41,351 nt of DNA from NCBI GenBank assembly GCA_011369465.1, contig DRQG01000117.1:1-41351 (forward strand), in the 5' to 3' direction. Shown here piece after piece: positions 9,070-12,905 of the stretch (positions within the stretch are counted from its first letter, which is position 1; the number at the start of each line of letters is the position of its first letter). The position numbers and the translations under genes were made by a program. The stretch is from Caldithrix abyssi (GTDB lineage: Bacteria > Calditrichota > Calditrichia > Calditrichales > Calditrichaceae). Under the pieces are notes generated by a model. The model saw nothing but the letters and a program-made list of their open reading frames with translations. It was not told the DNA's origin and ran no database searches.

Positions 9070-9655
9070 TATATTTTGGCTATTAGCTATTAGCTGCCTG
9101 CCCTGAGCGTAGTCGAAGGGTCAGTTATCCCCGCCACGGCGGGTTCTTCGCTTCGCTACGAAAGTTTTAAGTTCTAAAATCAACATTCGTTAATCGGTGT
9201 TCAAAGTTCAACTTTATGTTATTGGTTATTGAATTGGCTGTTAGCTGTTGGCTATTGGCTGTAAGCTATCGCCCTTAATTCGTAATTCACTCCCAGTATC
9301 CGGTTCCCAGTTTCCAATTTCGATTTACTAATTTCCAGTTTTTAGTTCTCAGTTACTAAGTTATTGAGTTATTAAGTTATTGGGTTATTAGTTCCCAGTT
9401 TCGAATTTCCAGTTTCCAGCATCCAGTTCCTATTTACTCGTCACGCGTCACCTGTCACTTGTTACTTTTTTCTTGCGTTACTTTGTGCCTTTGTCCCTTT
9501 GCCCCTATGTGCCTATTTATTCGTAATTCGTAATTTAATGATTCGTAATTGTTTTCCAGTTTCCAGCATCAAGCATCCAGTTCCCAATTCCCAGTTCCGA
9601 GTTTCCAATTTCCATTTACCCGTCACCAGTTACTTAACGCTCTGTGCCAAAGCAA
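9070..9655. repeat. low-complexity word cluster B
   Basis: Nearly 590 bp without a gene. Word families in order: GGCTATTAGCTATTAGCT; CCCTGAGCGTAGTCGAAGGG; the CCCCGCCACGGCGGG...CTACGAAAGTT block (9129-9166); GCTGTTGGCTATTGGCTG; AATTCGTAATTC; GTTCCCAGTTTCCAATTTC; GTTATTGAGTTATTAAGTTA; TTTCCAGTTTCCAGCATCC; CGTCACGCGTCACCTGTCAC; TTTGTGCCTTTGTCCC; ATTCGTAATTCGTAATT; and a second TTCCAGCATCAAGCATCCAG run. The order is close to that of clusters A and C. Confidence 0.8.
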
Positions 9656-9680: not shown

Positions 9681-11231
9681 TTACAACGGTATATTTCCAT
9701 GCTTTTTGGGCGGATTGCTGTCTGCCTTATTCTCCAGCATACGCAGGGCCTGAATGATGCGCACCCGGGTATAGCGCGGTTCGATCACCTCGTCGATGTA
9801 ACCCCGTTCCGCTGCCAGATAAGGGTTGGCGAATTTTTCGCGGTATTCCTGTTCCTTTTGGGCCAGCATGGCTTCCGGGTCTTCGCTGGCGGCAATTTCC
9901 TTTTTAAAGATGATTTCCGCTGCGCCCTTCGGCCCCATAACGGCAATTTCGGCGGTGGGCCAGGCGTAGTTGGCGTCAGCGCGAATGTGTTTGGAACTCA
10001 TCACGTCGTAAGCGCCGCCATAGGCTTTACGGGTGATGACGGTAACTTTGGGTACCGTAGCTTCGGCAAACGCGTACAGCAACTTGGCGCCCTGCTTGAT
10101 GATGCCGCCCCATTCCTGAGCCGTGCCCGGCAAAAAACCGGGGACGTCTTCAAAGGTAATTAAGGGAATATTGAAAGCGTCGCAAAAACGGACAAAACGC
10201 GCCCCTTTTACCGAGGCGTCGGTGTCCAGCACACCGGCCAGATGCGCCGGCTGATTGGCCACAATTCCTACCGAATACCCGTCAATACGGGCAAATCCTA
10301 CAATAATGTTTTTGGCATAATCGGGATGGATTTCAAAAAAACTGCCTCTGTCGATAACCAGTTCGATCACTTCTTTCATATCATAAGGCTGGTGGGGCCG
10401 TTCGGGAATAAAATCATCCAGCTCATCCACCAGTCGGTCGGGTGGATCATCGCCAGGCAAACGGGGTGGATCATCCAGATTGTTGGACGGAATATAAGAG
10501 ACGAGCTGCCGGATTTTCTGCAGACACTCGATATCGTTCTCACAGGTTAAATGATTAACGCCGCTTTTGGAAGCGTGGGTTTCCGCGCCGCCCAATTCCT
10601 CTGAGGTGACTTCCTCGTGAGTAACAGTTTTCACCACATTCGGCCCGGTTACAAACATATAGCTGGTGCCTTTTACCATAAAAGTGAAATCGGTAATGGC
10701 CGGCGAATACACCGCACCGCCGGCGCACGGCCCCATAATAGCGGATATTTGCGGAATAACGCCCGAAGCCAGGGTGTTGCGCAGGAAAATTTCCGCATAG
10801 CCGCCCAGACTGACCACCCCTTCCTGAATACGCGCCCCGCCGGAATCGTTTAAACCGATTACCGGCGCACCTACTTTCATAGCCTGATCCATAATTTTAA
10901 TAATCTTTTCAGCGTGCGCCTCCGACAGGCTACCGCCGAAAACCGTAAAATCTTGTGAGAATACAAACACCAGACGACCGCCTATATTCCCATAACCGGT
11001 AACGACGCCGTCACCCAGATAATGTTGTTTGTCCAGTCCGAAATCTTTGGATCGATGCTTTACCAGCATATCCATTTCCACAAAACTGCCTTCGTCCAGT
11101 AGATAATCAATCCGTTCGCGTGCTGTTAATTTACCTTTGGCGTGTTGAGCTTCGATACGTTTTTCACCGCCGCCCAACAGGGCTTCTGCGCGCAGTTTCT
11201 GCAGGTGCTGGAATTTGTCTTTGTGTTTCAT
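9681..11231 (-). CDS. acyl-CoA carboxylase carboxyltransferase (propionyl-CoA carboxylase beta-type)
   Basis: A 516-residue carboxyltransferase of the PccB/MmdA family, which moves CO2 from carboxybiotin to propionyl-CoA (giving methylmalonyl-CoA), or the reverse in sodium-pumping decarboxylases. Visible signatures: [20 protein letters not shown] (31-50), [30 protein letters not shown] (the N-domain oxyanion region), [25 protein letters not shown], and in the C-domain [20 protein letters not shown] and [15 protein letters not shown]-like ([11 protein letters not shown]). ATG at 11231 follows GAGGACTCT. No biotin carboxylase, biotin carrier or OadB-like gene is adjacent, so the partner is encoded elsewhere. 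Its functional companions are probably the mutase genes at 13660 and 14729. Confidence 0.9.
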
Positions 11232-11335: not shown

Positions 11336-11522
11336 GTCATCCTGAGCCCCATTGTCATCCTGAGCCCCGTCGAAGGATGACATTAGGCCGACCTGATACC
11401 GTCTCATTGCCGCGTAATAGTTCGACGGTGCTCACTATGACGCTGTTGTTTGTTCCTGCGTCAGTAACCATCATGTCATCCTGAGCCCAACTGTCATCCT
11501 GAGCTACGTCGAAGGATGACAT
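11336..11522. repeat. 28-bp palindromic repeat group, left of the GIY-YIG gene
   Basis: Full palindromic units occur at 11354-11381 and 11493-11520 (plus orientation) and 11414-11441 (opposite orientation). The unit is GTCATnnTGAGC, three variable bases, then GTCGAAnnATGAC. Half units (GTCATCCTGAGCCC) precede two of them. The stretch 11407-11522 is one copy of a 116-bp direct repeat whose partner is at 11890-12005. It fills the gap between the GIY-YIG gene and the carboxylase gene. Confidence 0.8.
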
Positions 11523-11552
11523 ATATTCAATCGCTTGTTAAAAACTCTTCTA

Positions 11553-11849
11553 TCAGCGTTTCTTCAAATTATACCTTTTAGCTAACTCCGGCAATTGATC
11601 GAACTGCCCATGGATTAATGCTTCTTTTTTCGCTCTTCGCCAGCCCTTTATCTGCTTTTCTCTTTGTATGGCATAAATAACTTCGGGATATGATTCGGCA
11701 TACACTAAAGCCACAGGCCTTCTTTTAAAGGTGTAACATCCCGGATCTATTCCTTGCTGATGTTCTACAAGCCGGCGTTCAATATTGTTTGTAACACCTG
11801 TATAGTAGGAACCATCCGAGCATTTTAATATGTATATGTAATAATCCAT
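11553..11849 (-). CDS. GIY-YIG nuclease family protein
   Basis: A 98-residue single-domain GIY-YIG protein of the UvrC-N-terminal / UPF0213-like type. Seen: YYIYILKCSDGSYYTGVTNN (the GIY and YIG strands, residues 3-22), R26 in NIERRLVEH, the RRPVALVYAESYPEV strand with catalytic-type Glu at about position 52, and the QREKQIKGWRRAKKEALI helix. Such small proteins are presumed DNA endonucleases, but few are characterised. It is enclosed by two copies of a 116-bp repeat rich in palindromic units (left 11407-11522, right 11890-12005), which suggests a link with spread or maintenance of those repeats. The start ATG is the only one that preserves the first strand. Confidence 0.85.
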   Translation of the reverse strand: MDYYIYILKCSDGSYYTGVTNNIERRLVEHQQGIDPGCYTFKRRPVALVYAESYPEVIYAIQREKQIKGWRRAKKEALIHGQFDQLPELAKRYNLKKR

Positions 11850-11889
11850 TTGGTTGATTTGGTGATTATTCTTGCTGTTGTATCTTCTC

Positions 11890-12160
11890 TTGCCGCGTCA
11901 TAGTTCGACGGCGCTCACTATGACGCTGTGGTTTGTTCCTGAGTCAGCAACCACAATGTCTTCCTGAGCCCCAATGTCATCCTGAGCCCTGTCGAAGGAT
12001 GACATAACTGCCCGTGAACCATCGTAGAGCCCCCTCGTCCTGGTTCGACACGTCCCGCCTGCAGCGGGACTGCTCACCATGACGCTATTATTTATCTCAA
12101 TCCACCTTAGCGTCATCCTGAGCGTAGCCTATCCCGACTTGTTGGGGTCGAAGGATGACA
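11890..12160. repeat. 28-bp palindromic repeat group, right of the GIY-YIG gene
   Basis: Units at 11897-11924 (inverted) and 11976-12003 (direct) lie in the second 116-bp direct repeat (11890-12005); by hand comparison it differs from the left copy at about 13 positions. Two expanded units follow: 12037-12084, whose centre carries a GTCCCGCCTGCAGCGGGAC hairpin, and 12113-12160, whose centre carries about 20 extra bases (CTATCCCGACTTGTTGGGG). There is no gene in 11850-12176. Confidence 0.8.
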
Positions 12161-12176
12161 CGCTCGTTGCACATCC

Positions 12177-12905
12177 TCACATCATCCCTCTGGCCTTAAA
12201 ACTGAAATAATCCTTCTCGGAAAGAATAATATGATCGTACAACGGAATACCCAGTATATCGCCGCTTTTCACCAGCCGTTCTGTGATGGCCACATCTTCG
12301 TCGCTGGGCTCAACGTTACCGCTGGGATGGTTGTGCAATACGATAATGCCTTTGGCCATGTATCGCACGGCTTTGTTGAATACATCGCGCGGATGCACGA
12401 TGGATGAATCCAGCGTACCGCGGCTGACTTCAAAATCGGAGATACGCTTCATAGCTGTATCCAGCAAGACGACGAAAAAACATTCCTTATCGCGATGCCC
12501 CAGAACCGGTTGGTAGATGCGCGCTACCTCGGCCGGATTGCGAAAGCTGATCAGCTTGCTCTCGGCTTTTTCTTTTTGCAGATTGCGATAAATTTGGAAG
12601 GCTGCCAGCAAGGTAACTGCCTTGGCCGGACCGATACCGGGTATTTTCTGCAATTCTTTAAAGGAAGCATCGCTTAGCGCCTGTAAGGTACCGAATTCGT
12701 TTAATAACCTGCGGGCCAGTTCCACGGCATTATAACGCACGGTACCCTGTCCCAGTAAAATGGCGATAAGCTCCACGCTGGAAACGGATTCCGGACCTTC
12801 GCTCATCAAACGTTCGCGCGGACGATCGGCCACCGGCCAGTCGGTAATGCGGGAACGGTAAAAATTGTTTTTTTTACTTTTAGGCTCGTCCTCTTTCATA
12901 TTCAA
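12177..12905 (-). CDS. radC: RadC family JAB-domain protein
   Basis: A 242-residue RadC protein. Residues about 28-100 form the helical N-terminal region (RPRERLMSEGPESVSSVELI) with a helix-hairpin-helix, IPGIGPAKA (88-96). Residues about 120-240 form the JAB/MPN domain with E141 and the metal motif H191-N-H193-P-S-G...S201-D-x-D204, followed by a YDHIILS strand. The name reflects an old repair phenotype that was later questioned; homologues near mobile DNA are common. The gene follows the barrel protein gene region closely (13 bp between the barrel gene's stop and this start), so the two may be co-transcribed. Confidence 0.9.
   Translation of the reverse strand: MNMKEDEPKSKKNNFYRSRITDWPVADRPRERLMSEGPESVSSVELIAILLGQGTVRYNAVELARRLLNEFGTLQALSDASFKELQKIPGIGPAKAVTLLAAFQIYRNLQKEKAESKLISFRNPAEVARIYQPVLGHRDKECFFVVLLDTAMKRISDFEVSRGTLDSSIVHPRDVFNKAVRYMAKGIIVLHNHPSGNVEPSDEDVAITERLVKSGDILGIPLYDHIILSEKDYFSFKARGMM

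Follow-up and report, generated by a model that had tools for sequence, protein, structure and literature searches.

Does the small GIY-YIG nuclease gene at this Caldithrix abyssi locus merely lie among the palindromic repeats that surround it, or do gene and repeats belong together as one mobile system? Bacteria commonly carry palindromic repeats between their genes, of which RAYTs explain only a part. We analyzed the locus within its window, the whole stretch of 41,351 nucleotides to which it belongs, and compared it with related and more distant genomes.

The GIY-YIG gene and its protein

The gene (positions 11553–11849, minus strand) encodes a protein of 98 residues whose sole Pfam match is to the GIY-YIG domain (PF01541, E = 4.1e-19). 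The invariant Tyr, Arg, His and Glu residues are all kept in the alignment of class-1 proteins (A1), and the protein is predicted from these residues to be catalytically intact. There are eight GIY-YIG matches in the genome, and the only strong match to class 1, the class of the window protein, is the window gene itself (151 bits; the next scores 75). NCBIfam holds no family for the protein, and its relatives give weak matches there to group I intron endonucleases, far under the cut-off. Rfam returned a sub-threshold snoRNA match alone and no known RNA family, PADLOC gave no match to an anti-phage defence system, and nothing useful was obtained from PHROGs. A profile search related the protein to the UPF0213 proteins, the nearest solved relatives by sequence being 1zg2 and 1ywl. 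Over about 90 residues it is 62–64% identical to proteins of Nitrospinaceae, Bacteroidota and Ignavibacteria/Ignavibacteriae, but only 46–55% identical to the other class-1 proteins in A1, all of which come from relatives. Because the window protein is closer to proteins of distant phyla than to the class-1 proteins of its own relatives, this pattern of identity fits horizontal transfer, as far as sequence alone can tell, and ancient paralogy is not excluded.

Organization of the palindrome array

The gene sits between two copies of a 116-bp direct repeat (11407–11522 and 11890–12005). The preliminary description of this DNA had put the differences between them at about 13, and we counted exactly 13 of 116 positions (89% identity over 117 positions in a separate repeat comparison). 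It had also described each copy as one unit plus one inverted unit, which a search with the consensus GTCATNNTGAGCNNNGTCGAANNATGAC bore out. Allowing up to three mismatches, this search found five units in the window, every one within the array, and no match in 100 dinucleotide-preserving shuffles of the window. Three are full units on the plus strand (11354–11381, 11493–11520 and 11976–12003; the first is a 28-bp palindrome) and two are inverted (11414–11441 and 11897–11924, minus strand); the one at 11414–11441, with one mismatch to the consensus, has a different yet complementary stem. The core TGAGCn2-30GTCGAA is present 12 times in the window, where 0.4 occurrences would be expected. The two expanded units reported previously are real, although the ends given for them were off by one base: one with an expanded inner hairpin spans 12037–12083 on the minus strand (core 12044–12076) and one with an expanded centre, recovered by the core search, spans 12112–12159 on the plus strand. 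The statement that no full units lie elsewhere in the window holds for the 28-bp form only, since the core search also found an isolated short unit, CCCTGAGCGTAGTCGAAGGG, sharing the core of the array, at 9101–9120 (plus strand).

Half-units of the form GTCAT..CTGAGC lie upstream of three plus-strand units. The half-unit GTCATCCTGAGC, assigned to repeat family D3 at 11336–11347, recurs at 11475–11486 and, as GTCTTCCTGAGC, at 11958–11969, on the plus strand and 18 bp before a full unit each time. These half-units may be cut or repair intermediates left behind in the array.

We scored covariation of the stem over 85 distinct 5' arms, with re-mated arms as the control. Pairing at the third and fourth stem positions outside the core is seen in 74 and 80% of units, respectively, compared with 32 and 30% of re-mated arms, and G-C, C-G, T-A and A-T pairs are all used there. 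The unit has a fixed core and a free but complementary stem. Single-strand DNA folding of one window unit gave an 8-bp stem (z = -3.2), and another window unit folded no better than shuffles (z = -0.15).

Empty sites in related genomes

The array occupies the gap between two genes of a conserved pair, an acyl-CoA carboxylase (carboxyltransferase) gene (9681–11231) and radC (12177–12905), both on the minus strand. The gap is 945 bp in the window and contains eight core-like matches, compared with 9–354 bp and no core-like match in all nine relatives that keep the pair; the flanks examined in those nine contain no GIY-YIG gene. A second case is provided by the class-1 gene of G005, which sits in an array of 21 cores over about 1.3 kb. 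No core was present in the corresponding region of its congener G013 or in the 352 bp available from G012. As the matching sites are empty in relatives, gene and repeats are additions to both sites. For the window, the comparison of sequences identifies gene and array as an insertion into the radC–carboxylase pair, in which the order of arrival of gene and repeats is undetermined.

Enrichment of palindromes around class-1 genes

We examined about 60 small GIY-YIG loci, taken from the window's genome and from its relatives within the class, and their placement is non-random: one group immediately follows tRNA genes and shares their strand, and the remainder lie mostly inside palindrome arrays. 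Repeat coverage around the GIY-YIG genes falls from 36.5% within 250 bp to 14% at 250–500 bp and 1.5% beyond 4 kb, and coverage close to the gene exceeded that farther away at 48 of 51 loci from 40 related genomes (Wilcoxon p = 1.2e-9). For a wider sample we searched a genome collection with the class-1 alignment, which yielded 80 named loci, mostly from Bacteroidota and Rhizobiales, together with Nitrospinota, Ignavibacteriae, Anaerolineales, Sulfuricurvum and Fibrobacter. With the class-1 core defined as GAGCn2-4G[TC]CGAA on either strand, its density at these loci was 3.32/kb within 250 bp, 0.95/kb at 250–500 bp and 0.037/kb at 2–5 kb, making it about 90 times denser next to the gene than at 2–5 kb. 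Repeat coverage was greater near than far at 77 of the 80 (p = 1e-14), and palindromes built on a GAG..TCGA core with 5 bp or more of stem occurred at 2.41/kb near these genes against 0.014/kb far from them.

A strict core was found no more than 500 bp from the gene at 46 of the 76 class-1 loci with enough flank, and on both sides at 24. The other 30 (about 40%) have none in that range; several of these, chiefly from Flavobacteria and Rhizobiales, have variant cores instead, which we read by eye as TCGAGTG..TATCGAGAAC in Flavobacteria and CTGAGG..CCTCGAAGG in Rhizobiales. When perfect 8-bp stems were used as the measure of palindromes, counts beside the gene exceeded distant ones at only 26 of 46 loci, which is not significant (p = 0.49), probably because stems contain mismatches and terminators elsewhere are counted. 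Repeat coverage and the core motif were adopted as measures only after this null result.

Repeat type and nuclease clade

Among relatives, the small GIY-YIG genes divide by clade: class 1 is accompanied by TGAGC..GTCGAA hairpins and class 2 by GTCATT.. palindromes, and the genes of a third branch immediately follow tRNA genes. Counted within 600 bp of the gene, class-1 loci have 3.56 class-1 cores/kb and 0.08 GTCATT/kb, class-2 loci have 0.06 and 5.45, and the tRNA-linked clade has 0.00 and 0.45, respectively. Three loci that we labeled YhbQ/YazA-like from their sequence (L111, L115 and L118) have 0.32/kb of each motif and thus no enrichment of a cognate palindrome, and the class-1 core is absent from 31 RAYT loci totaling 91 kb. 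No other result speaks as strongly as this double dissociation against a chance association or a site that is simply permissive.

In a tree of 85 rows, the repeat class follows the nuclease clade, the GTCATT label requiring 3 changes against a mean of 15.7 for shuffled labels, the class-1 core label 9 against 20.3 and the tRNA-Ser label 2 against 5.9. The class-2 clade has an SH-aLRT support of 99, and the three YhbQ/YazA-like proteins form a clade of their own, likewise with a support of 99, that does not include the window protein, although resolution is lacking at many inner branches. Class-2 GIY-YIG genes also occur in the window's genome, where L003/L095 (G000:C22) and L002/L087 (G000:C12) lie beside GTCATTCCGACGAACG.. 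and GTCATTCCGAACTTGATTCGGAAT.. repeats, and these are a second nuclease-repeat pairing in the same genome.

tRNA-linked relatives

We took as a tRNA-GIY pair any two such genes on the same strand separated by less than 120 bp (n = 18). In 12 of the 18, the sequence beyond the GIY-YIG gene repeats at least 14 nucleotides from the 3' end of the tRNA or from the flank of that end, compared with none of the control tRNAs, of which there were only four. Some of these tRNA-end copies run on into a second copy of the GIY-YIG gene. By analogy, this plan, a nuclease gene between copies of its presumed target, matches the 116-bp repeats of the window.

In the window's genome, L004/L101 (G000:C100) and L005/L110 (G000:C4) are GIY-YIG genes beside tRNA Val and Ser, between duplicated stretches of tRNA, and G000:C100 carries a run of repeated tRNA fragments. 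In relatives, 12 GIY-YIG loci lie 4–56 bp downstream of a tRNA (L072, L074, L086, L088, L091, L094, L103, L112, L114, L121, L125 and L126). The Ser- and Cys-linked genes cluster by isotype on the tree, and several tRNA-linked genes are tandem copies 290–400 bp apart.

Dispersed units within and across genomes

Searching the window's genome for the strict plus-type unit gave 27 places, overlaps included, compared with none for a reversed-pattern control. Most have no GIY-YIG gene nearby, which is to be expected where a single nuclease gene is matched by many dispersed repeats, and they commonly alternate with an inverted unit of different stem, GTCATGGTTCGACnnnGCTCACCATGAC. By analogy, the dispersal is the pattern of REP-like elements and the alternation is BIME-like. 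The genome has two Y1_Tnp genes, and its RAYTs are flanked by other palindromes. One RAYT-like gene, L036 (G000:C51), lies amid CCCACGA..TCGTGGG palindromes and is a normal REP/RAYT pair.

We compared the number of cores across 40 genomes of the class, calling a class-1 gene at 140 bits or more. The median was 39.5 cores in the 12 genomes with the gene and 11.5 in the 28 without it (Mann-Whitney p = 4e-4, with no phylogenetic correction). The excess of cores correlated with the presence of a class-1 gene (rho 0.56, p = 1.5e-4) and not significantly with the number of RAYTs (rho 0.23, p = 0.15), kinship being uncorrected in both cases. G036 was scored as lacking the gene, yet it has 129 cores and, close to a contig end, a class-1 fragment beside units; at this genome the contrast is therefore understated. 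In genus g6, the sole member without a class-1 gene, G012, has only background cores. Dispersed units are present in G025 (complete) and G010 (73% complete), in which no class-1 gene was detected, and units can thus persist or spread without one. The orphan palindromes with the class-1 core in these two genomes are either relics or the product of another driver.

Discussion

The evidence points to an undescribed nuclease-repeat system of REP/RAYT-like or homing-like kind. We consider it probable, with real room for doubt, that the gene and its repeats are one coevolved selfish-DNA system in which the nuclease multiplies the units; its binding, cutting and spreading of the units are inferred. 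This reading is built on the observed structure of the array, the enrichment across phyla, the match of clade and repeat, the covariation of the stem, the correlation of gene and units, and the empty sites. The preliminary description had drawn a parallel with REP/RAYT, and this has gained support on three counts: units are strongly enriched beside genes of this GIY-YIG class in unrelated genomes, the proposed search for empty sites succeeded at the radC–carboxylase pair (nine of nine relatives) and at the G005 array (two congeners), and unit number per genome follows the class-1 gene in the 40 genomes, with G025 and G010 as exceptions. Each of these three results has its equivalent in the evidence by which RAYT/REP was defined (PMC2817692). 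That a nuclease drives the repeats is as much an inference now as it was then.

In the mechanism that we propose, a single class-1 GIY-YIG endonuclease would recognize a hairpin or cruciform with the fixed core TGAGC-nnn-GTCGAA and a free self-complementary stem, and would cut the DNA at or near the units. Recombinational repair of the cut would then copy units, or units together with the gene, to new places. The outcome would be a lone nuclease gene within an array, with numerous cognate palindromes scattered elsewhere, an arrangement formally equivalent to RAYT/REP except that the nuclease is hydrolytic. It is inferred at each step that units are bound and cut by the protein, that the cuts make them spread, and that the route is homing-like repair copying. 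GIY-YIG enzymes cut hydrolytically, and we know of none that rejoins strands, from which we infer that repair-driven copying is likelier than cut-and-join transposition.

Of the alternatives, the one that survives best, which we regard as possible if rather unlikely, is that a free-standing homing-type gene targets palindromes (or tRNA 3' ends) as landing pads and spreads into them, the palindromes being multiplied by an unidentified agent. The tRNA-linked relatives would suit such a gene, as they adjoin tRNAs and 12 of 18 have a tRNA-end copy with no sign of genome-wide tRNA multiplication, and so would the orphan units in genomes without a class-1 gene. However, unit number correlates with the class-1 gene, G012, the one member of genus g6 without the gene, stays at the background level of cores, and no other transposase is linked to the units, the RAYT loci having none.

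We find it very improbable that the protein is a structure-specific nuclease in the service of the host, kept beside repeats because it trims or resolves their hairpins and cruciforms. Its sporadic presence, its closer identity to proteins of distant taxa and its insertion at empty sites look like those of a mobile gene, and a repair enzyme need not reside in its own substrate, even though the profile relation to UPF0213 proteins (1zg2 and 1ywl) and the established action of Slx1 and like GIY-YIG enzymes on branched DNA would be compatible with such a role.

A RAYT at another place in the genome might have spread the units as ordinary REPs, leaving the GIY-YIG gene a bystander, but this reading is close to refuted. 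Despite the two Y1_Tnp genes and the BIME-like alternation within the array, we rejected a RAYT as driver on the absence of cores from the 91 kb at 31 RAYT loci, the lack of a significant correlation between core and RAYT numbers, and the different palindromes that flank the RAYTs of this genome. Chance, by which small dispensable genes and repeats would both gather in permissive intergenic DNA, has next to nothing left in its favor beyond the intergenic position of both, as the repeat type matches the nuclease clade and neither the three YhbQ/YazA-like loci (0.32 cores/kb) nor the RAYT loci (0) are enriched; the double dissociation rules it out as long as it holds in larger samples.

If the preferred reading of a nuclease that multiplies its own palindromes is true, a second, unrelated nuclease family with clade-matched palindromes explains a further share of intergenic repeats, REP systems have evolved convergently, and there is a connection to tRNA-linked selfish genes. 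A target with a fixed core and a free stem would be an unusual mode of recognition, and one small protein and short oligonucleotides are enough to test the system directly. A wider proposal, to which we give even chances, is that small GIY-YIG nucleases are a large unrecognized superfamily of bacterial site-specific selfish genes, each clade matched to one hairpin-forming DNA (TGAGC..GTCGAA, GTCATT.. or a given tRNA 3' end), and are the engine behind many REP-like repeats in, for example, Bacteroidota and Alphaproteobacteria. We found no report in the open-access literature that links GIY-YIG genes to REP-like palindromes; preprints and most subscription journals lay outside the search, and priority is not assured. 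The 2006 survey of the GIY-YIG superfamily leaves palindromes unmentioned.

Comparison with known systems

The double-hairpin elements of fungal mitochondria are mobile hairpins, and the genomes that carry them contain GIY-YIG genes as well. To our knowledge no clade-matched pairing of nuclease and repeat is known for them, and the class-1 system, unlike them, is bacterial. The UPF0213 or YhbQ-YazA proteins (1zg2 and 1ywl) are equal to the window protein in size and domain, but the three loci sampled show no enrichment of a cognate palindrome and the window protein falls outside their clade.

Free-standing GIY-YIG homing endonucleases of phages and mitochondria (relatives of I-TevI) share with the class-1 system a domain with its catalytic residues, a gene with its presumed target beside it, on both sides, and a patchy distribution that suggests horizontal transfer. 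As to the homing criterion that the gene adjoins its recognition sequence and that an empty allele exists, empty sites and, in the sister clade, tRNA-end copies are observed, and the recognition sequence is undetermined. In contrast to those enzymes, the target here would be a multicopy palindrome or tRNA end rather than a unique coding sequence, and in the window protein, of about 100 residues, a separate DNA-binding domain was not found.

The RAYT/REP systems, in which TnpA_REP is associated with REP/BIME, were defined by the counterpart evidence of flanking, clade matching and abundance (Nunvar et al. 2010, PMC2817692). The class-1 system resembles them in having a small gene flanked by palindromes, alternating inverted units, and many dispersed units for few genes, as well as a repeat type that follows the protein clade and a repeat number that tracks the presence of the gene. 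It is not a member of RAYT/REP, because its enzyme is a GIY-YIG nuclease and not a Y1 (HUH) tyrosine transposase; its core is TGAGC..GTCGAA, and the relatives of its nuclease use tRNA 3' ends or a second type of palindrome.
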